A DNA stretch of 64,000 bases, taken from NCBI RefSeq assembly GCF_000613865.1, contig NZ_BAJU01000004.1, positions 1 to 64,000 on the forward strand. Reading direction: 5' to 3'. The position numbers and the translations under genes were made by a program. Below the pieces are notes generated by a model. The model did not search any database. It was not told the origin of the DNA and saw nothing but the letters and a program-made list of their open reading frames with translations. The stretch comes from Acetobacter okinawensis JCM 25146 (GTDB lineage Bacteria > Pseudomonadota > Alphaproteobacteria > Acetobacterales > Acetobacteraceae). Below are positions 45,521-60,983 of the stretch, in pieces. Every line of letters begins with the position of its first letter. Position 1 is the stretch's first letter.

Positions 45521-47008
45521 GTGGTAGCACCTGCCTGCATTTTGGTTGTTGATGATGAACCGCGCTCCGTGGAAGTTATTGCACGTATCCTGCGTGAGGA
45601 ATTTGAGGTTCTGAGCGCCACCAATGTGGAGCAGGCCCGCGCATTGCTGGAGAGCAACTGGGTTCACGCCATTTTTTGCGACCAGCGTATGCCGGGCATG
45701 AGCGGGGTGGAGTTTCTGGCAGAAGTCCGCACCCGCTGGCCGGATATCGTGCGGATGATAGTAACCGGTTATACCGAACCGGATGACATGATAGAGGCCA
45801 TTAATCAGGCTGGCATCTACCAGTATATTACCAAGCCGTGGCACCCCGACCAGCTCTTGCTGGCCGCGCGGAATGCCACGCAACTCTTTGCCATGCAGCG
45901 TGAGTACGAACGTCTTTCGCTCGAGATCAGGCTTGCCCCACCTGTAGCGGAGGGACGTTTGCGCCAACAGCGGGAGCGGGTGGCGGGTAGCTACCATTTT
46001 GATTCCATCATCCGCACCACTGCCAGCCCAATGAGCGATGTTTGCCGTCAGGCGGCCAAGACAGCGATATTTGATATTCCGGTCCTGATTGAAGGTGAGA
46101 CCGGAACCGGCAAGGAGTTGCTGGCCCGTGCGGTGCATTACGCAAGTCAGCGCAGCGCTGGAGCTTTTATTGCCGTCAATTGTGGGGCCATACCAGATGA
46201 TCTTCTGGAATCAGAGCTGTTCGGCCATCGTAAAGGGGCTTTTACCGGAGCTCATGCCAACCGCCGTGGCCTTGTGGAAGAGGCAGATGGTGGTACGCTG
46301 TTTTTGGATGAAATTGGAGATATTTCTCCCGCGTTTCAGGTCAAGATCCTTCGTTTTCTGCAAGAGGGAGAATTCCGTCCCCTTGGCACTAACGAGACGA
46401 CACGCGTGAATGTACGTGTGCTGGCCGCAACGCATAAGGACCTGCGGGCAGAGGTTAGGGCTGGGCGGTTCCGGGAAGATCTGTATTTCCGCCTGACTGG
46501 CATGGTGCTGAGTATTCCTCCATTGCGGAGTAGGCCTGCAGACATCCATGTTCTGGCGCAGCACCTGCTGGATGCTGCCTGCGCACGGCATGGCCGGCAT
46601 GTACGCGGTTTTGCTCCGGGTGTTATGGATGTGCTTGTACGTTACGCTTGGCCCGGTAATGTGCGTGAACTGCAGAACGAAATTTTGCGTATGCTGGTGC
46701 TAGCCGAGAGCGACAGTCTAGGGCTGGATCTGCTGTCCCCTATGCTCATGGGAGTGGAACCTGTTTGTGCAGCACCTCCAACACTGTCTGCTCCCGAACC
46801 AGTCACGCACGCCAACGGCTCCTTGCAGGAACGCATGGATGCGCTGGAAGCTGATGTGCTGATGCAAACCATTGCCCGGTGTGGGTGGAACAAAAGCCTG
46901 ACAGCGCGGGAGCTCGGCCTCTCCCGCGTAGGGTTGCGAGCCAAGCTTGAACGTTATGGCATTATTCCCAATGCGGGAAAGCAAAGTTTACAGAAGGGAA
47001 ATTCCTGA
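45521..47008 (+). CDS. hupR: NtrC-type response regulator HupR
   Basis: 495 residues. Receiver domain 1-120 with phosphoacceptor D54 (FCDQRMPGMSG) and K105. A linker is followed by the AAA+ domain: Walker A GETGTGKE (192-199), the sigma-54 contact loop GAFTGA (239-244) and Walker B FLDEIGD. The C-terminal Fis-type helix-turn-helix is SLTARELGLSRVGLRAKLER. It is the HupT partner that activates the hup genes. R. capsulatus HupR works without sigma-54; here the GAFTGA loop is intact and sigma-54 promoters precede hupS and hupD, so classical sigma-54 activation is expected. The start is a GTG with GGAG 10 bp upstream. It is preceded by hypB and followed by hypC after 1 bp. Confidence 0.93.
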   Translation: MVAPACILVVDDEPRSVEVIARILREEFEVLSATNVEQARALLESNWVHAIFCDQRMPGMSGVEFLAEVRTRWPDIVRMIVTGYTEPDDMIEAINQAGIYQYITKPWHPDQLLLAARNATQLFAMQREYERLSLEIRLAPPVAEGRLRQQRERVAGSYHFDSIIRTTASPMSDVCRQAAKTAIFDIPVLIEGETGTGKELLARAVHYASQRSAGAFIAVNCGAIPDDLLESELFGHRKGAFTGAHANRRGLVEEADGGTLFLDEIGDISPAFQVKILRFLQEGEFRPLGTNETTRVNVRVLAATHKDLRAEVRAGRFREDLYFRLTGMVLSIPPLRSRPADIHVLAQHLLDAACARHGRHVRGFAPGVMDVLVRYAWPGNVRELQNEILRMLVLAESDSLGLDLLSPMLMGVEPVCAAPPTLSAPEPVTHANGSLQERMDALEADVLMQTIARCGWNKSLTARELGLSRVGLRAKLERYGIIPNAGKQSLQKGNS

Positions 47009-52353: not shown

Positions 52354-52369
52354 ATTGTATGCTTACAAT
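52354..52369. promoter_or_regulatory. Operator-like inverted repeat before the MocR gene
   Basis: ATTGTATGCTTACAAT is a near-palindrome about 35 bp before the preferred mocR start. Its reverse complement (ATTGTAAGCATACAAT) matches TTTTTAAGCATACAAT upstream of the Nit1C operon at 54034-54049, sharing the TAAGCATACAAT core. Autoregulation is likely. Confidence 0.6.
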
Positions 52370-52403
52370 AGATCAGATGGCTAAAAATGTATGGAGATAT
52401 TCT

Positions 52404-53806
52404 GTGTCGCAATATGCTTACCTTCCGCAATGGAAAGATGAGATCAGTCGTAGCCCAAGCGCCGTTTACCTGACAATTGTGGATGCTCTGGCTCTTTCCA
52501 TCCGCAAAGGTGATCTGAGGGAAGGGGACAGGTTGCCCCCTCAGCGCATAATTGCAGAATATCTTGGGGCCAATCTGACGACCGTAACCCGGGCCTTTAC
52601 CGAGGCGCGCCGACGCGGTCTGATTGATGCCACAGTCGGACGGGGCACTTTTGTGCGGGTTGGCGCGGGCGAGAGTCATTGGCGGCATACAGGACCAGCC
52701 GTGGTCGACCTGACCATGAACCTGCCACCCATTCCACAAGATCCACCATTACAACGGATGATCCAGACTGACATCACAGCCATCCTAAAGCAGCAGGATC
52801 TGAATACTCTCATGTCTTACCGCGTCACAGGCGGAACACTGGAGGAGCGTCAGCTTGGCGCAAAATGGATTGCCCCTGTTATCGGTCACCGGCGCACGGA
52901 CGAAATTCTTGTATCCCCCGGTGCGCAAAGTGCCTTGGCGGCAATTGTCAGCACACATACACAACCTGGCGATGTTATTGTGACAGATCGCATTGCCTAC
53001 CAGGTATCCGTACCATAGCAGCACAGTTTGATCTTATTCTGGTCGGTGTTGACAGCGACAAAGATGGCATGATGCCCGGCCAGCTCGACCAGATCTGTGC
53101 GGAACATCATCCCCGATTGCTTTATTGCATCCCAACAATCCACAACCCCACAACAGCAACCATGCCCTTACAAAGACGCATGGATATCCTTAAGGTCGCC
53201 CAGCACCATCACCTCCATATTATCGAAGACGACCCTTACAGCCTGCTGATGGACAGCCCACTTCCAGCACTTGCAGCCCTAGATCACGGCCGTGTCAGTT
53301 ACGTGGCGACACTCGCTAAAACCCTGAGTCCGGGCTTGCGTACGGCATATATCGCACTCCCCAGTGCCGACATGACCCGGCGCGTTACGGCGGCTATCCG
53401 TGCCATAGCCTTAACCAATGCTGGTCTGCTGAGCGCGCTGACCGCACGGTGGATGCAAACAGAGCAGGCCCATACCGTCCTGCATGCTATCCGTAAAGAA
53501 CTGCGTCTGCGCCAAGCTATTGCCCGCAAAGTTCTGGGGGAGGAGCACTGCATGAACCCCGATGGCCCCCATGTCTGGCTGAAACTGCCCGACTGGTGGG
53601 GTAGCGCTGACTTTGTCGCTTATGCACGCAGGCGTGGCCTGGCCTTGGTCCCCAGCACGGTCTTTACCATTAGTGGTGAACCTCCCCAGCGTGCACGGAT
53701 CGCATTAGGCAGCGCGCCAGATACCTCAAGCCTTGAGGAATCCCTCCATGGGGTCCTGTCGGTGCTGCAGCACAAACGCTCTCCAGGCTTTGCCGATATT
53801 GTGTGA
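52404..53806 (+). pseudogene. MocR-type GntR/aminotransferase regulator, one frameshift
   Basis: A GntR winged helix (RKGDLREGDRLPPQRIIAEY, NLTTVTRAFTEARRRGLIDA, TVGRGTFV) is fused to a fold-type I aminotransferase domain with LVSPGAQSALAAIVSTH and the PLP lysine in ATLAKTLSPGLRTAY. The frame breaks near 52999-53002. Adding one C to a CC run joins TDRIAY to PGIRTIAAQFDL, as expected for the family, giving about 467 residues. I prefer the GTG at 52404 (GGAGA 6 bp before) because an ATG at 52359 lies inside the operator-like repeat. MocR proteins sense PLP adducts of amino compounds. It precedes the Nit1C cluster on the same strand and shares a motif with its promoter, so it is its likely regulator. 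Confidence 0.85.
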
Positions 53807-53817
53807 CCTGACTGCAT

Positions 53818-53850
53818 GCCCGGAATCTCTGATCGCACCAGATTCCGGGC
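53818..53850 (+). terminator. Hairpin terminator after the MocR gene
   Basis: GCCCGGAATCT and AGATTCCGGGC form a perfect 11 bp stem around an 11-base loop, 12 bp after the mocR stop. There is no T-run, so termination may need Rho. It separates mocR from the Nit1C transcript. Confidence 0.65.
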
Positions 53851-53947
53851 CACGGCCTGCAGGAGCATGGAAAACAAAAAAACATTCATTCACAAATGCG
53901 TGATTTATAAATATAAGAAAAACAGGGGGTTATAGAAAATTCCCTCA

Positions 53948-54050
53948 TTTGTATGCAGTCGTTACATTTTTTGTATGGACCTGTCTTTATCAAAACCTGA
54001 CATGCGCCTTAGTTTGTTTTGATTGTACCCAATTTTTTAAGCATACAATA
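53948..54050 (+). promoter_or_regulatory. Nit1C control region with TTGTATG/CATACAA sites
   Basis: TTTGTATG occurs at 53948-53955 and TTGTATG at 53971-53977, 22 bp apart (two helical turns), and the inverted form AAGCATACAAT at 54039-54049. The same unit forms the palindrome before mocR. Direct repeats on one DNA face are typical of MocR targets. The region is AT-rich, and no sigma-54 element is visible. Confidence 0.55.
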
Positions 54051-54144
54051 TTTTACCTCTCTCTGATTCTCGTGCCACGTTTTCCCACGCAACGCGGTCA
54101 GCCCCGGCCTTTTGCCACGGACCGCAGCATATGGGAGAAATATC

Positions 54145-54626
54145 ATGCCGAACGTCGAACATGCTCCGCATAAAGATGGCGATTGCTTTGTTAATTATGA
54201 AAACAAGGTTTTCGAAGACGTAAAAGCCAACCCCGGCGAAAAAGCCTTATCACCTTTCATACCGTTGCAAATGAAGGCTCGGTCGGGTTTGTCAATCTTC
54301 TGCAGGCCACACGCCTGATCCGCAAAGGTTTTGAAACATCGGTGCTGCTGTATGGGCCGGGTGTAACCCTTGGCGTGCAGCGCGGCTTCCCCCGTCTGGG
54401 CGATGAGGCTTTTCCGGGGCACATGAACTGCAACAAGCAGATTGCAAAAATCCTTGAAGAGGGCGGAAAAGTTTATGCATGCCGCTTTGCGCTTCAGGCC
54501 CTTTACGGTTACGGCGAGCAGAACCTGATCCCCGGCATTACCCCCATCAACCCGCAGGACGTGCTCGATATTATCCTGCTTGCCCGTCGTGACAACGCCT
54601 TCATTCTGAACACCTGGACTCTCTGA
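54145..54626 (+). pseudogene. MSMEG_0572/Sll0783-family nitrogen starvation protein, one frameshift
   Basis: The first gene of Nit1C clusters. It starts [20 protein letters not shown] after GGGAG. The frame breaks near 54247-54250. Adding one base to the TT run joins NPGEKA to [20 protein letters not shown] and continues to [20 protein letters not shown] and the end NTWTL, giving about 160 residues, the family size. The fold is DsrE-like, with a conserved Cys in HMNCNKQI. Members are induced by nitrogen starvation in cyanobacteria and mycobacteria; the reaction is unknown. The lesion is consistent with a homopolymer error. Confidence 0.85.
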
Positions 54627-54651: not shown

Positions 54652-55632
54652 ATGTCCCGTATTGTTCGCGCTGCTGCCATCCAGATCACTCCCGTCCTTG
54701 GTGACGATGGTCTGGGTACAGCCCGGAAAGTCTGTCAGGCCATCCGCGATGCTGCCGAAAAAGGTGTAAAGCTCGCGGTCTTTCCTGAAACCTTTGTGCC
54801 GTATTACCCTTATTTTTCGTTCATTCAGCCCGCTTTCCGTTTTGGGGGCGAACATCTGGAACTTTACGAACGCGCTGTTGTCATTCCCGGTCCGGTAACA
54901 GACATGGTGGCCGAAGCTGCCCGCGATACCGGAATGGTTGTGGTGCTAGGCGTAAACGAGCGCGATTTTGGTACACTCTACAACACGCAGATCATTTTTG
55001 ATGCAACGGGCCAGATCCTGCTCAAACGCCGCAAAATTACACCGACTTACCATGAGCGCATGGTCTGGGGGCAGGGGGATGGTTCAGGCCTGAAAGTTGT
55101 TGAAAGTGCGGTGGGGCGTATCGGGGCTCTGGCGTGCTGGGAGCATTACAATCCTCTGGCTCGCTATGCGCTGATGACCCAACATGAGGAAATTCATTGC
55201 GCTCAGTTCCCCGGCTCATTGGTTGGTCAGATTTTTGCTGATCAGATGGAAGTGACCATTCGGCACCATGCGCTTGAATCAGGCTGTTTTGTCGTCAATG
55301 CCACCGGATGGCTTACGGATGAGCAAATTGCCGAGATAGCAGGCAACCCTGCGCTCGAAGGGCCACTACGTGGTGGCTGCTTTACCGCCATTGTCTCGCC
55401 CGAAGGCAAACTACTGGGAACACCCCTGACCCAGGGCGAAGGCATGGTGATTGCCGACCTCGACTTTGCTCTCATTACAAAACGTAAACGGATGATGGAT
55501 AGTGTGGGCCATTATGCCCGCCCCGAACTGCTCAGCCTGCTACAGGACCGGCGGCCAGCCCATACCGTTCATTACACTGATGAAAGTGCTTCATTCCCGA
55601 CGTCGGCAGATACAGAGGTGGTGGCACCATGA
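54652..55632 (+). CDS. Nitrilase of the Nit1C cluster
   Basis: 326 residues of the nitrilase branch of carbon-nitrogen hydrolases. The catalytic triad is E46 ([13 protein letters not shown]), K128 ([14 protein letters not shown]) and C162 ([15 protein letters not shown]), with the conserved WGQGDGSGL region between. It hydrolyses a nitrile to acid and ammonia. In Nit1C clusters it is linked to nitrogen starvation and to growth on cyanide; the natural nitrile is not known. It starts 25 bp after the MSMEG_0572-like gene behind GGGAGG, and overlaps the radical SAM gene by 4 bp (ATGA). Confidence 0.93.
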
Positions 55633-56738
55633 GCGTTCCAACATTGGGTACGATTTCTGGTCGCAAGCTTGTTACGGATCTGCAGTCCTTGGGCCTGCAG
55701 ATTGGCGAGCAGGCAGGTGGCATGACCCGCAAAGGCGGAGCGGGTCCTTCCGATCACAAAACAATTACCATTGCGGGACAGACGATCATGGTCCCGGTCT
55801 ATACGTCTGGGGCCCGGCGTTCCCCGTTTCAGGCCAGTCAGCCAGACCAGAATGGTGCCAGCACGCTGGTGCGCGATGGACAACCGCTCGGCACGATCCA
55901 TTTTCCGGCAGCTCCGCGTTTTTATGGGCTCACCACGGCAGACGGGATTCCTTACTGGAAAATCGCCTTGCTGCATGGGCGCGACACACTGGCAACCACG
56001 GTGCACCAGACCTGCATCCGCTATGCTGACCGGCGAACATCCTGCCAGTTCTGTGCAATTGGTCAGTCGTTGGAAGCGGGGAGGACCATCGCCTATAAAA
56101 CACCAGCACAACTGGCAGAAGTGGCAAAAGCCGCCGTGAAATTGGACGGTGTGCGTGACATGGTGCTGACAACCGGCACTCCCAACATGGTTGACCGAGG
56201 CGCTGCCGTGCTGGCGGACTCAGCACGTGCTATCCGGGCTGCGGTTGACCTGCCGCTTCAGGTCCAGTGCGAGCCGCCACGTGATCATACTTGGTTCCAG
56301 AGACTGCGCGATGCAGGCGCCGACAGTCTGGGCATGCATCTTGAGGCCGCAACACAGGCTGTGCGGGAGCGGATTATGCCCGGCAAGGCTACGGTTAGCG
56401 TGACCCGTTACATGGATGCTTTTGCGCAGGCCGTACCTGTTTTTGGGCGCGGGCAGGTCAATACCTACATTCTTGCCGGTCTTGGCGACAGTGCCATGGA
56501 TATTCTGGCTCTGGCTGAACGGCTGATTACCCTGGGGGTATATCCTTTTGTGGTGCCATTTGTGCCCATTTCCGGCACCCCACTGGAAAACCATGCTCCG
56601 CCATCTGCCGAGTTCATGAAGTCCGTTCTGGCCCCACTAGGCCGGATGCTGCGTGAAGCAGGCATGAAATCGACAGACATCCGTGCGGGATGTGGCCGGT
56701 GTGGTGCCTGTTCCTCGCTGTCGGCTTACGAACAATGA
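55629..56738 (+). CDS. Radical SAM protein, MSMEG_0568 family
   Basis: 369 residues. The cluster motif is C129-X9-C139-X2-C142 ([19 protein letters not shown]), a spacing characteristic of this Nit1C family rather than the common CX3CX2C. The SAM-binding strand regions [13 protein letters not shown] and LQVQCEPP follow. Near the C-terminus [10 protein letters not shown] may bind a second cluster. It presumably makes or modifies the nitrile processed by the nitrilase (inference). It is overlapped by 4 bp on both sides. Confidence 0.9.
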
Positions 56739-57298
56739 GTACGCTCTTTGACGGTATGGAAGACAGGCCTTTCATTCCCACGGAATATGTGGTGCGCCTT
56801 GCGCGCACACCATGGGAACGGGCTGGCTACCACGCCCTGCGCCGCGATGTGTTCTGCACCGAGCAAAAGGTCTTCATGGAGGATGACCGGGACACTATCG
56901 ATCAGGTTGCCATCCCCATTATTGCTGCCTGCTGCATGGCGGGGATCCCGGACCGGATTGTAGGGGCTGTGCGTATCCATGAATCCGAACCCGGCGTGTG
57001 GCGCGGCTCCCGTCTGGCTGTGCACGCAGAGCACCGCAAGCTTGGGCGTATTGGGGCGGAACTCATCCGCATGGCAGTCAGTACGGCGCATGGTCTTGGG
57101 GCTACGCGCTTCCTCGCTCAGGTACAGGAACAGAATGTTCTGTTTTTCCGCCGCCTGCACTGGAAAAGTCTGGGGAGCGTGATGCTGCATGGCCTGCTGC
57201 ATCACGACATGCAGGCAGATTTATCCCGCTACCCTGCGCATGGGCAGGACCAGACATGGCTGCTACGCCCACAACCCCGGATACGACAGGTCGCGTGA
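56735..57298 (+). CDS. GNAT-family acetyltransferase-like protein, MSMEG_0567 N-terminal type
   Basis: 187 residues. The GNAT fold shows YHALRRDVFCTEQKVFMEDD, GAVRIHESEPGVWRGSRLAV and HRKLGRIGAELIRMAVSTAH, the acetyl-CoA pyrophosphate loop region. In mycobacteria this domain is fused to the AIR-synthase-like domain encoded next; here they are separate, overlapping by a TGATG. The start ATG overlaps the radical SAM stop. Confidence 0.85.
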   Translation: MSTLFDGMEDRPFIPTEYVVRLARTPWERAGYHALRRDVFCTEQKVFMEDDRDTIDQVAIPIIAACCMAGIPDRIVGAVRIHESEPGVWRGSRLAVHAEHRKLGRIGAELIRMAVSTAHGLGATRFLAQVQEQNVLFFRRLHWKSLGSVMLHGLLHHDMQADLSRYPAHGQDQTWLLRPQPRIRQVA

Positions 57299-58269
57299 TG
57301 GCGCACGTGTTAACCTCGTTGCTGCATACTCTCCGCAACGCCCGCGCTCTTGCGGGCAAGCAGGATATTGCGCAGGCGGCGGCAATCCTGGAGCCCGACA
57401 ACTCCGCAGCCATCCGCCTGGGAGATGACTGCGCGGCCATACCCGATGGGGACGGCTATCTCCTTTTGGCCAGTGAAGGTTTTCAGGACAGCTTTGTCCG
57501 CGCCATGCCGTGGTTTGCCGGGTATTGCGGCGTAATGGTGAATGTGAGCGACATTGCTGCAATGGGTGGCCGCCCAGTGGCTGTTGTTGATGCGCTATGG
57601 AGCGATACGTCCGAGGCTGCGGCATCTATTCTGACCGGGCTGCATGATGGTGCACGCACCTATGGCGTGCCAGTTGTGGGCGGGCATACCAACATGCGCA
57701 GTACCCACAACTCGCTTTCGGTAGCCATTCTCGGTCGTGCGCGGCGTCTGCTCACCAGCTTTGATGCCCGTCCGGGTGAAGTGCTGATTGCGGCAATCGA
57801 CCTGCGTGGTCGCTGGCATGATCCGCACCCGTTCTGGGACGCCAGCTCCGCATTGTGCGGCCCCGAAGGGGGAACCAGACTGCAGGAGGATCTGGGGCTT
57901 CTGCCACGCATTGCTGAAGACGGTCTGAGCCGGGCGGCCAAAGACATCAGCATGGCCGGGGTGCTGGGAACAGCCCTTATGCTGGCAGAATGTTCTGGTG
58001 TGGGTATGACCATCACACTTGAGAACATTCCGCGCCCTGAGTGTGCCCCTATGGAGCGCTGGTTGTCTGCGTTCCCCAGCTATGGCTATCTGCTGACAAC
58101 CCACCCAGAGGATGCAGCAGCCGTTATGGCCCGCTTTCACGGACGGGGCATTGCAGCGGCTGTTATCGGTCAGTGCAATGGCTCCCAGCGGCTTGATGTA
58201 ACATGGAATGACAGGACGGAAACGTTCTGGGACCTTGCACAAACCCCGCTCATGGGGTTTGCGCGATGA
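57298..58269 (+). CDS. AIR synthase-related protein, Sll0787 family
   Basis: 323 residues with the PurM/SelD-like ATP-binding fold: AIRLGDDCAAIPDGDGYLLL, GVMVNVSDIAAMGGRPVAVV and PVVGGHTNMRSTHNSLSVAI, then DISMAGVLGTALML. It corresponds to the C-terminal half of MSMEG_0567. Family members activate a substrate with ATP, but this branch has no proven reaction. It overlaps the GNAT gene by one base and the glycosyltransferase by 4 bp. Confidence 0.88.
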   Translation: MAHVLTSLLHTLRNARALAGKQDIAQAAAILEPDNSAAIRLGDDCAAIPDGDGYLLLASEGFQDSFVRAMPWFAGYCGVMVNVSDIAAMGGRPVAVVDALWSDTSEAAASILTGLHDGARTYGVPVVGGHTNMRSTHNSLSVAILGRARRLLTSFDARPGEVLIAAIDLRGRWHDPHPFWDASSALCGPEGGTRLQEDLGLLPRIAEDGLSRAAKDISMAGVLGTALMLAECSGVGMTITLENIPRPECAPMERWLSAFPSYGYLLTTHPEDAAAVMARFHGRGIAAAVIGQCNGSQRLDVTWNDRTETFWDLAQTPLMGFAR

Positions 58270-59447
58270 GCCTTTCCATTGGCATTCTCACCCATTCGAC
58301 CAACCCGCGGGGTGGGGTCGTGCATGGTATGGCACTGGCGGAAGCGTTGTGTGCTGCCGGGCATGACGCAACCCTGATTGCCCCGGATGTAACGGGGGCG
58401 GGGTTTTTCCGTAAGCCCCTCTGTGCAACTCACTGCATTCCGGCAGCACAGGTACCTGATCTGCCAGCATTGGTGGAATGTCGTATCGGTGAAATTGCAA
58501 ATGCCCTGCGGCATAAGGCGTCCTTTGATGTGCTGCATGCTCAGGACCCGATTAGCGCCAACGCTCTTGCGCAACTGGTGCGCGAAGGCTGGCTTGGAGG
58601 CTTTGCGCGCACAGTTCATCATCTGGACAGCTTTGCACACCCCGGCGTTGCAGCGCGGCAGATACAGGGGCTGACAACTGCAACCGAGCTTTTTACGGTC
58701 AGCCAACTCTGGCAGAGCAGAATTCTGAACGACTATGGGCGGTCCGCACCTGTTGTGGGCAATGGCGTTGATCTGGCCAGATTTTCCCCAGAACTGGAGC
58801 CGCACGATCATACATTGCGTGCCCGTTACGGGATCGCGCAGAACGTACGCCTTGTTCTGGCAGTCGGCGGGATCGAGCGCCGCAAGAACACATGGGTTCT
58901 GCTTGAAGCGTTTGAAGCACTGCACCGGGAGCATCCGGACCTGCATCTTGTTATTGCCGGGGGTGCATCCTTGCTGGACCACTCCACTTATCGTCATCTG
59001 TGTGACGAGCGGATAAGGCACGGCGGTCTGGCGGAGGCCATAACCATAACGGGGACTGTTGCGGATGAGGACATGCCCGCACTCTATCGGCAGTCGTCCG
59101 TGCTGGCCTATCCGTCACAAACGGAAGGCTTTGGTCTGTGTCCGCTTGAGGCACTGGCCTGCGGGTTACCCGTAGTCGTTCCTTCCGTGCCGCCGTTTAC
59201 GGAACATCTTCAGTCTTTTGAGGCACTCTGGTGTCAGCCAGACCGCCCCGAGACACTTGTTTGCGCGTTGCGTCATGCCCTGAGTGCTCAAAGCCAGACC
59301 TGTTTTGAGATCAGCGGCCCAGCAACGGCCCGCCGTTTCGACTGGCATAGCGTTGCCAGTCGGCACCTTCCCGCATACCGGCGTCTGGCGGCTCTGCCGC
59401 ACGCTGGTGTCCCTGCTTCAGGAGCTTTGTCATCATGCCCGAAATGA
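58266..59447 (+). CDS. Glycosyltransferase, MSMEG_0565 family (GT4)
   Basis: 393 residues, GT-B fold. The N-terminal domain starts IGILTHSTNPRGGVVHGMAL. The C-terminal nucleotide-sugar domain has LVLAVGGIERRKNTWVLLEA and PSQTEGFGLCPLEALACGLP with the EX7E motif. It presumably adds a sugar to the nitrile-containing or related metabolite made by the cluster (inference). It overlaps the previous gene by 4 bp and the next by 13 bp. Confidence 0.9.
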   Translation: MSLSIGILTHSTNPRGGVVHGMALAEALCAAGHDATLIAPDVTGAGFFRKPLCATHCIPAAQVPDLPALVECRIGEIANALRHKASFDVLHAQDPISANALAQLVREGWLGGFARTVHHLDSFAHPGVAARQIQGLTTATELFTVSQLWQSRILNDYGRSAPVVGNGVDLARFSPELEPHDHTLRARYGIAQNVRLVLAVGGIERRKNTWVLLEAFEALHREHPDLHLVIAGGASLLDHSTYRHLCDERIRHGGLAEAITITGTVADEDMPALYRQSSVLAYPSQTEGFGLCPLEALACGLPVVVPSVPPFTEHLQSFEALWCQPDRPETLVCALRHALSAQSQTCFEISGPATARRFDWHSVASRHLPAYRRLAALPHAGVPASGALSSCPK

Positions 59448-59722
59448 CCTTTCGCGTGCGTTGGCCCGATGGAAAGGAGAGTGAGTGCTACTCCCCATCG
59501 CTTGTTATTCAAGACCACTTCACGCCCGGTCAGGATTACCCGGTCCGGGACTTTTTGCAAAAGGCAGAAACAGCCCTGACACAGGCCAGTGACCGGGTTC
59601 TCGCGCGCTATGGCTTTGCGTGCAGCCGCGCGCTTGGGCAGCTTCAGGCTATCCGTCAGACCTGCACGCCCTTTCTTAATCAACCCAATGCGCAGGTGCG
59701 CGTCCTGTCATTCAACTCCTGA
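59435..59722 (+). CDS. MSMEG_0570-family nitrogen starvation protein
   Basis: 95 residues in the compact form of the family: EMTFRVRWPDGKESECYSPS, LVIQDHFTPGQDYPVRDFL and the C-terminal GFACSRALGQLQAI. It is known only from Nit1C clusters, with no assigned reaction. It overlaps the glycosyltransferase by 13 bp and precedes the flavoprotein by 15 bp. Confidence 0.87.
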   Translation: MPEMTFRVRWPDGKESECYSPSLVIQDHFTPGQDYPVRDFLQKAETALTQASDRVLARYGFACSRALGQLQAIRQTCTPFLNQPNAQVRVLSFNS

Positions 59723-59737
59723 GACGAAAGAACGACC

Positions 59738-60983
59738 ATGACACAGAACGAAAAAAGCATTCCCGTCATTATCGTAGGTGGCGGACAGGCTGGTTTGTCC
59801 ATGAGTTGGTATCTTTGCCGCGAGAAGGTGGAACATATCGTCTTTGAGGCAAAAACAGCCTGCCACTCGTGGGATGATGAACGTTGGGATAATTTCTGCC
59901 TGGTAACCCCAAACTGGCAGTGCGAGCTCCCCGGCCACCCGTACAAGGGGAATGACCCGCACGGTTTTATGGTTAAACAGGAAATTATTGATTACGTAAA
60001 AGGATTTGTGGACTCTTTTACACCACCCTTGCGTGAGCACACCGCTGTTACTTCCATCACACGGCATCAATCTGGTGGCTACCGCGTGGTGGCTGGTCAG
60101 GAGGTATGGCACGCACAGCACGTCGTCATTGCATCAGGCGCGTATCAGGATGCAGTTATTCCCGGCTATGCCAGTGCAATCGACCCCGCCATCTATCAGG
60201 TTCATTCGCAGGATTATCGCAATGCAGCCGAACTGCCCGAAGGGGCTGTGCTGGTGGTAGGGAGTGGCCAGTCCGGTGCGCAGATCGTTGAAGATCTGTT
60301 CCTTGAAAAACGCAAGCTCCACCTGTGCGTTGGTTCTGCACCGCGTGTTTCGCGCTTCTATCGTGGACGCGATGTTGTGGACTGGCTCGCAGATATGCAC
60401 TTTTATGACCTGACGGTGGATAACCACCCTTTGCGTGACGGCGCACGGGACAAGACGAACCATTATGTCACGGGCCGGAACGGCGGCCATGATCTTGATC
60501 TGCGTCTTTTCGCCCAAAAAGGTGTTGGTTTGCATGGCTCGTTGGAAAACATTCGTGATGAAGTGGCCCATTTTGCGCCAGACCTGAAAGATAATCTTGA
60601 CGACGCAGACAAGACCAATGCCGACATCAAGAAATCCATCGACGCCTACATTGCCCGCGAAGATCAGTGCTCCGACCGAAGCACCTTACGTGCCGGTATG
60701 GGAACCCAATGACAAAAACATTCCGCTTGATCTCAAGGCCGCCGGTATTACCTCGATCATCTGGTGTATTGGTTTTCGTCCCGACTATCGCTGGATTGAT
60801 GTGCCCGTTTTCAACGGAGCCAACAAACCGGTCTGGAACCGTGGGGTGACCAATGCGCCGGGCTTTTACTTCCTTGGTCTCCCATGGCTACACACATGGG
60901 GTTCGGGGCGTTTCTCCGGTATCTCGCGTGATGCGGCGTGGCTTGCCGGCCAGATTACCGGCAAAACTGTGCACGTAGCCTGA
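59738..60983 (+). pseudogene. MSMEG_0569-family flavin-dependent oxidoreductase, one frameshift
   Basis: A monooxygenase-like flavoprotein. The FAD site is VIIVGGGQAGLSMSWYLCR, the second dinucleotide site is VLVVGSGQSGAQIVEDLFLE, and the C-terminal part has TSIIWCIGFRPDYRWIDVPV and PGFYFLGLPWLHTWGSGRF. The frame breaks near 60655-60660, between KSIDAYIARE and ISAPTEAPYVPVWEP, with a net gain of one or loss of two bases, unlike the one-base losses elsewhere. Corrected length is about 415 residues, the family size. It may oxidise an amino compound to an oxime or nitrile in the pathway (inference). The acyl-CoA synthetase follows 15 bp later. Confidence 0.86.

Follow-up and report, generated by a model that had tools for sequence, protein, structure and literature searches.

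The mocR-Nit1C region of Acetobacter okinawensis

We analyzed a stretch of 64,000 nucleotides from Acetobacter okinawensis JCM 25146 (contig NZ_BAJU01000004.1, positions 1 to 64,000, hereafter the window), in which a gene for a MocR-type regulator, mocR, lies directly upstream of the nitrilase gene cluster Nit1C. Copies of the box TTGTATG are located before both mocR and nitB, the first gene of Nit1C, and they probably constitute the operator of the adjacent MocR protein. A GTG at 52404 behind a GGAG is the likely start of mocR, as judged by eye and from the aligned starts of relatives, which places the first box upstream of the gene. The features are listed below, with identities and ranks taken from the alignment of relatives described in the next section.

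52354-52369, + strand: mocR-proximal site ATTGTATGCTTACAAT, with the box TTGTATG at 52355-52361
52387-52393, + strand: weak half-site ATGTATG, 32 base pairs (bp) after the first mocR box, identified by eye
52404-53806, + strand: mocR, with a GntR head and an aminotransferase-like body; reading frame interrupted near 53000, homologs intact in relatives
53949-53955, + strand: putative operator box 1, TTGTATG, mean column identity 0.934, rank 12 of 333
53971-53977, + strand: putative operator box 2, TTGTATG, 22 bp after box 1, identity 0.956, rank 4 of 333
54023-54027, + strand: putative operator half-site box 3, TTGTA, column identity 0.985
54042-54048, - strand: putative operator box 4, read as CATACAA on the + strand, inverted, identity 0.995, rank 1 of 333
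54145-54626, + strand: nitB of the MSMEG_0572/Sll0783 family, the first gene of Nit1C; reading frame interrupted near 54244

An earlier, sequence-only reading of this region had noted ATTGTATGCTTACAAT before mocR, TTTTTAAGCATACAAT before Nit1C, a 12-base word common to the two in inverted orientation, and two further TTGTATG copies 22 bp apart upstream of Nit1C. All of these were recovered: TTTTTAAGCATACAAT is located at 54034-54049 (+), its reverse complement has ATTGTATGCTTA in common with ATTGTATGCTTACAAT, and the two further copies start at 53949 and 53971. In addition, box 3 and the CATACAA of box 4 form a 26-bp inverted pair. The palindrome of ATTGTATGCTTACAAT is complete in the window and fits the form ATTGT-N6-ACAAT described for EnuR/EutR (PMC8739950). 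As a general operator this palindrome was rejected, as most relatives are without it when inspected by eye. Near the position of the ATGTATG half-site, several relatives carry AATGTATGGA or AATATATGGA (by eye).

The evidence from this one genome is modest, and the 12-base match is weak: a common word of at least 12 bases between the two intergenic regions was obtained in 33 of 2000 first-order Markov simulations. Three copies of TTGTATG in the Nit1C intergenic region were seen in only 1 of 20000 simulations, for a word that was chosen after the fact, while any 7-mer of more than two letters reached three copies in 754 of 3000. The 11-mer TTGTATGCTTA, allowing up to two mismatches, is not enriched over the whole window (12 found, 13.6 expected). 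With single-genome chance rates of this order, the comparison across relatives provides the decisive support.

Conservation of the boxes in near relatives

A collection of named genomes was queried with the MocR protein, which yielded 56 loci from Komagataeibacter, Acetobacter, Gluconacetobacter and Novacetimonas. In all 56, nitB is the next gene downstream of mocR on the same strand. At least two TTGTATG boxes precede nitB in 54 of these loci, against a mean of 0.06 and a maximum of 1 in shuffled sequences. Before mocR, one or more are present in 55 (mean 1.5 and maximum 6 in shuffled sequences), with L149 as the exception. In 51 of the 56 loci, box 4 occupies the same place, -99 to -104 relative to nitB, and 48 have TTGTA-N16-TACAA, the inverted pair of 26 bp.

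For a footprint analysis we used regions of 320-360 bp (48 of the 56 loci and the window), of which 26 sequences remained after the removal of near-copies, and scored 333 seven-base windows. The boxes have an identity of 0.97 to the commonest base, as compared to 0.59 elsewhere in 53930-54060 and 0.67 at all other positions. Boxes 1 and 2, approximately 195 and 173 bp upstream of nitB, are highly conserved. What is conserved is the unit TTGTATG; the 12-base core of the sequence-only reading did not hold up as such a unit and was discarded, since its CTTA part is not retained. That reading had named a lack of conservation of the motif in relatives as a finding that would refute it; in the relatives compared here the motif is conserved. 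Just 3' of box 4, at 54068-54078, a further stretch is conserved, which reads TCCCGTGCCACG in relatives.

Linkage of mocR and Nit1C across Proteobacteria

Loci were collected from genomes with matches to TIGR04044 above cut-off, which were found in 33 of 299 genomes of the family Acetobacteraceae (window included), in 9 of 337 genomes of the class (window included) and in 16 of 398 genomes of the phylum (13 new). Four genomes with TIGR04044 matches only below cut-off were left out. Among the 32 family loci, the MocR gene is codirectional and upstream in 23 and divergent in 7, while the remainder have a C-terminal MocR piece at a contig end (L053) or a MocR gene about 6 kilobases (kb) away (G277). 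A divergent MocR gene adjoins Nit1C in all 8 other loci of the class and in 12 of the 13 further loci of the phylum. In total, 52 of 53 proteobacterial loci have MocR beside Nit1C (once about 6 kb away). At the exception, L107, a divergent gene encodes a PAS and sigma-54-activator protein, which resembles NitA of Pseudomonas (PMC8567248, PMC11049912); it is the only such locus seen in the sample, and no sigma-54 activator was found next to Nit1C in the family among the matches listed. Annotated examples of the MocR-Nit1C arrangement are those of Acetobacter oryzoeni, Pantoea sp. At-9b and Agrobacterium tumefaciens pAt15955.

Komagataeibacter and Acetobacter MocR proteins of the same type are also encoded on plasmids (H41-H60; L297), with 25 records at 90-95% identity. 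In A. oryzoeni, the plasmid carries this MocR gene together with Nit1C, close to replication and integrase genes. A MocR with about 34% identity to the query is found in hundreds of Klebsiella plasmid records.

Specificity of the boxes and motif discovery

We searched for the tandem pattern TTGTATG-N10-30-TTGTATG in 26 family genomes, 22 with and 4 without Nit1C. The pattern had 15 matches, 12 of which are at the Nit1C promoter, while a reversed control pattern had 2. The sole other tandem pair in the genome of the window (L109:2751-2790; G000:C126:47250) lies ahead of an operon that looks unrelated by eye, with a small gene and then ParA-like and glycosyltransferase-like genes. No close MocR was found in four Acetobacter genomes without TIGR04044, where the best matches were 34% and 31%, with nothing at the limit in two.

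Motif discovery, in which gapped words were counted against shuffles with no motif supplied, gave TTGTA.G (at least two copies in 15 of 27 non-redundant loci) and TTGT.TG (19 of 27) as the top words in the family. Outside the family, the top word was TTGA.TG, present in 15 of 20 loci against 0.25 expected; the maximum for any word in the shuffles was 10 loci. Two or more copies of a wider box, TTG[TA][ACT][TC]G, which was drawn by eye from the discovered word sets, are present in 32 of 33 family loci (shuffles: mean 4.9, largest 10) and in 19 of the 21 loci outside the family (mean 3.4, largest 8).

The MocR protein and its recognition helix

P0001, an intact 467-residue relative, was used to assign the domains of the regulator: its GntR head matches PF00392 and its aminotransferase class I/II body PF00155, both above cut-off, and the N-terminal piece encoded in the window has PF00392. 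The best NCBIfam model is that of the ectoine regulator EhuR (NF052286), with 362.5 bits against a cut-off of 480, and the protein is thus not a member of that family. Residues N248, D276, D277, Y279, K306, R313 and R432 are invariant in 50 of 50 aligned proteins. We take these seven residues to form the pyridoxal phosphate (PLP) site, including the Schiff-base lysine, and an arginine invariant in the 50 proteins presumably occupies the carboxylate-binding position of GabR. Both the combination of head and body domains and the residues of the PLP site indicate membership of the MocR subfamily, and they lend weight to the earlier suggestion of a PLP-type sensor.

The sequence of the boxes was compared to residue 62 of the recognition helix (numbered on P0001). 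Threonine is found with TTGT-type boxes and alanine with TTGA-type boxes, while serine is mixed. All 24 proteins with threonine have at least one TTGT box and 21 of the 22 with alanine have TTGA boxes; the four with serine have one type, the other, or both. The trend is repeated in MocR paralogs, where some proteins with threonine are without a box. The co-variation is confounded by descent, although the serine and paralog cases span several lineages.

In the phylogenetic tree, the Nit1C-linked MocR proteins fall into two clades, one from the family and mainly codirectional (96/94), the other proteobacterial and divergent (100/98). Both are nested inside a larger clade (100/99) that holds four other MocR proteins, and the linkage to Nit1C therefore does not define one simple orthologous group. 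A single Nit1C-specific MocR clade disagrees with the tree, in which two changes are needed.

Promoter type and a second conserved element

A -24/-12 element was sought in the last 150 bp before nitB at a score of at least 10 of 13 (shuffle rate 1.6%). Of 54 loci, 28 have such a sigma-54-like element: 9 of the 33 from the family and 19 of the 21 from elsewhere. With the same scoring, none was found in the 56 named relatives of the clade to which the window belongs, nor in the window. Control of the Pseudomonas type by sigma-54 and NitA is thus not seen here: the element is missing, and MocR is the regulator next to the cluster. The boxes persist upstream of sigma-54-like promoters. The comparison suggests a promoter switch: a promoter of the sigma-54-like type may have been lost, with the specific regulator and its boxes retained. 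The sequence-only reading had argued that Nit1C is controlled here not only by general nitrogen control; this fits the clade of the window, in which the sigma-54-like promoter seen elsewhere was not found.

One further element is located between mocR and box 1.

53890-53903, no strand assigned: second element TCACA-N4-CGTGA, TCACG-N4-CGTGA in relatives (one mismatch here)

With at most one mismatch, TCACG-N4-CGTGA was recovered in 51 of the 56 named relatives, at a shuffle rate of 1% per region as measured on the 54-locus set. It is present in 20 of 26 loci without a sigma-54-like element and in 2 of 28 with one, at other places. As the possible mark of a wide regulon, TTCACG-N4-CGTGA was sought in 10 genomes, with 26 sites found, a number in which 11 forward/reverse pairs are still included, against 17 for a reversed control; two genomes had none, including that of the window, where the copy is mismatched.

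Related MocR genes and terminal oxidases

Of the four other MocR proteins in the larger clade, that of G578 is encoded beside DUF983 and cytochrome bd subunit I, that of G924 beside cytochrome bo, that of G722 beside DUF983, and that of G277 after ArsR-type and sulfite/nitrite-reductase genes. A further 40 MocR loci of about 11 kb were fetched and their neighbors scanned with a panel of families, some neighbors remaining unscanned. DUF983, a proposed COX4-like family (PMC4013037), was found near 16 of them (17 with L257, identified by Pfam), cioA near 3 and cyoAB near 3, and the panel detected Nit1C near none of the 40. Other neighbors were PhzF (3), PALP (1) and EamA with ThiF (L294 as scanned; L295 looks alike). 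In 11 plasmid regions that were viewed, Nit1C was present in 3, DUF983 with cytochrome bd in 2 (Roseomonas gilardii, Aminobacter), DUF983 without bd in 2 (Sinorhizobium meliloti, and Microvirga with an oxidase assembly gene) and cyoABCD in 1 (Paraburkholderia); 2 had none of these (Azospirillum B510, Novosphingobium humi) and 1 was unannotated. Similar boxes were also observed in several intergenic regions of MocR relatives by DUF983 or oxidase genes (L196-L200, L256-L295).

Cytochrome bd genes were called cio-like from a short subunit I and their neighbors, and their cyanide insensitivity is putative. In Gluconacetobacter johannae, G. azotocaptans, G. tumulisoli and G277, cioA is divergent from the MocR gene that precedes Nit1C (about 6 kb away in G277), and TTGTATG boxes are located near the starts of both cioA and mocR. 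Among 19 cioA-like loci from 15 family genomes, boxes precede the 2 that adjoin this MocR and none of the 17 others. As cioA has boxes only when this MocR adjoins it, the boxes follow MocR. A regulon acting in trans on cioA elsewhere found no support, TTGTATG being missing in 17 of 17, and a wider cio regulon is unsupported.

Comparison with characterized systems

The genes belong to the same families, in a like order, as the Nit1C cluster of Podar et al., 2005 (PMC1199592), with the glycosyltransferase gene located between those for the AIR synthase and the small hypothetical protein. Podar et al. could not identify conserved regulator sites, whereas conserved boxes were found here. The MocR-subfamily regulators EnuR, EutR and EhuR have a similar half-site, ATTGT, and the mocR site of the window fits their ATTGT-N6-ACAAT; EnuR is a repressor (PMC8739950). 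The MocR studied here differs in its linkage to Nit1C, in the layout of the boxes at Nit1C and in its score of 362.5 against 480 bits.

In Pseudomonas pseudoalcaligenes CECT5344, mocR lies beside a cio cluster that includes a nitrilase gene, and is reported to encode a negative regulator, with unpublished proteomics and a growth phenotype given in support (PMC8567248). Its nit1C adjoins the gene for the sigma-54-dependent NitA, unlike here (PMC8567248). MpaR of Pseudomonas aeruginosa is a MocR-type regulator of a terminal oxidase gene that is needed for the cyanide response and is a proposed PLP-cyanide sensor, but it activates ccoN4 and has a different required palindrome, ATCTGAT (PMC10790758). 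Both Pseudomonas proteins are likened to the MocR of the window by description and not by a tree. The operators of GabR and other MocR proteins consist of direct or inverted boxes at whole-helix-turn spacing (PMC5320631), like the boxes in the window. The passages on MocR operators in that work mention no Nit1C regulon, and the word nitrilase is absent from its main text, supplementary tables aside.

In the literature on Nit1C and on MocR with nitrilases, cyanide or oxidases, where subscription journals are thinly covered, we recognized no report of MocR control of Nit1C among the papers listed and found no specific Nit1C regulator outside Pseudomonas. We regard the proposed MocR regulon on Nit1C as new, while MocR regulation itself is already known.

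Control of Nit1C by MocR and the nature of its signal

The earlier proposal of a common operator and of MocR control of Nit1C gains strong support from the conservation of the boxes, their near-exclusive location at these genes, the gene linkage and the co-variation of regulator and operator. We estimate a probability of roughly 0.87 that the boxes are the operator of the adjacent MocR, with spaced TTGTATG half-sites at the mocR and Nit1C promoters, and that a PLP-reactive ligand switches Nit1C. MocR would recognize the half-sites, and the site at its own promoter would mediate autoregulation. The Nit1C site would consist of four boxes: boxes 1 and 2 as direct repeats with a 22-bp spacing, and boxes 3 and 4 as an inverted pair of 26 bp. 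We infer that MocR binds these boxes and carries PLP, and represses mocR and Nit1C until a small molecule reacts with the bound cofactor and alters the complex. Relief of repression by a ligand is the most likely mode, with EnuR and the CECT5344 MocR as analogs, whereas MpaR is an activator.

Several observations weigh against this interpretation. The strict tandem pattern marks Nit1C in only 12 of the 22 searched Nit1C genomes, the exact 22-bp direct pair is found in only 30 of the 56 named relatives, the spacing of the boxes varies in more distant relatives, and near relatives are non-independent samples. TTGA boxes also occur with 6 of the 24 threonine proteins and TTGT boxes with 3 of the 22 alanine proteins, one locus (L052) having neither type. 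Moreover, the Nit1C-linked MocR proteins are not one clade, and the mocR gene of the window is itself frameshifted.

As for the signal, we tentatively propose, at somewhat below even odds, that the MocR linked to Nit1C uses its PLP to sense cyanide or a derivative (PLP-cyanohydrin, aminonitrile, 3-cyanoalanine), in a group of regulators that couples cyanide-resistant respiration to cyanide assimilation. This proposal is drawn from the company of oxidase genes and Nit1C and from the two Pseudomonas cases. In CECT5344, 3-cyanoalanine induced NitC and not Nit4 (PMC8567248), which speaks against 3-cyanoalanine as the ligand of the MocR of that strain. About an even chance is given to the alternative that MocR senses an ordinary amino compound or a metabolite of nitrogen status with no direct link to cyanide, which competes with the cyanide proposal only and is compatible with the operator. 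Characterized MocR proteins sense amino compounds (PMC8739950). The nearest family model is that of EhuR, though the score is under cut-off, an arginine is invariant at the presumed carboxylate-binding position of GabR, and many relatives adjoin DUF983, PhzF or other genes and not a cyanide-resistant oxidase. Against this, the wider MocR group is linked to cytochrome bd, cytochrome bo and Nit1C, and two MocR-type proteins of Pseudomonas have been tied to cyanide (PMC8567248, PMC10790758).

That another DNA-binding protein reads the boxes, with MocR a mere neighbor, is improbable. Another protein may act at the second conserved element, TCACG-N4-CGTGA, but the boxes track MocR: they precede both mocR and Nit1C, they precede cioA only beside this MocR, and their type tracks the residue in its recognition helix. 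It is less probable still that the conserved words are promoter elements for RNA polymerase. The sequence TACAAT, in the mocR site and overlapping or following box 4, resembles a -10 hexamer when compared by eye to the -10 consensus. However, boxes 1 and 2 are conserved far upstream of nitB, which argues against promoter elements, and the boxes persist upstream of sigma-54-like promoters. Similarity by chance, or a locus in mere decay in this genome, may be suspected from the frequency of the 12-base match in simulations and from the frameshifts in 4 of the 8 compared genes, but we consider it highly improbable, as in divergent relatives the boxes are better conserved than the adjacent columns, they are also found outside the family, and the frameshifts are irrelevant to the relatives and may be sequence errors.

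Nit1C is found in distant bacteria and is required for cyanide assimilation in Pseudomonas, where it has been tied to the use of cyanide and nitriles. If MocR acts through these boxes, a regulator with defined, co-varying operators offers a handle on the cluster, as identifying its inducer should show to which natural signal the cluster responds. Should this be cyanide, the proposed cyanide sensing by PLP proteins becomes testable in harmless vinegar bacteria, and a cyanide-sensing MocR would be an independent case of the chemistry proposed for MpaR.

Other genes and frameshifts in the window

The remaining features of the Nit1C block are as follows.

54652-55632, + strand: Nit6803-family nitrilase of Nit1C (TIGR04048, 568.5 bits against a cut-off of 502.6)
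55629-60983, + strand: remaining Nit1C genes, for radical SAM, GNAT, AIR synthase-like, glycosyltransferase, MSMEG_0570 and flavin oxidoreductase proteins
53000, 54244, 60661 and 62188: approximate positions of frameshifts, from comparison with an Acetobacter plasmid

Every gene family of Nit1C was found by NCBIfam, with two of the genes broken. All matches in 55629-60983 are above cut-off except that of the flavin oxidoreductase, whose gene is broken near 60661 (484.1 against 498.35 bits). Eight genes of the block were compared to the Acetobacter oryzoeni plasmid, and four of them, mocR, nitB, the flavin oxidoreductase gene and the following AMP-ligase gene, have lost one or two bases. The protein sequence flanking each of the four frameshifts is 76-94% identical to that of the plasmid, and the frameshifts may be sequence errors or recent decay.

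Directly before mocR, the segment 47295-51854 contains hydrogenase-maturation-like genes and a metal-permease-like gene (by eye) as well as rpoN (identified by NCBIfam), and a sigma-54 activator domain is encoded at 46019-46507, about 8 kb from Nit1C.
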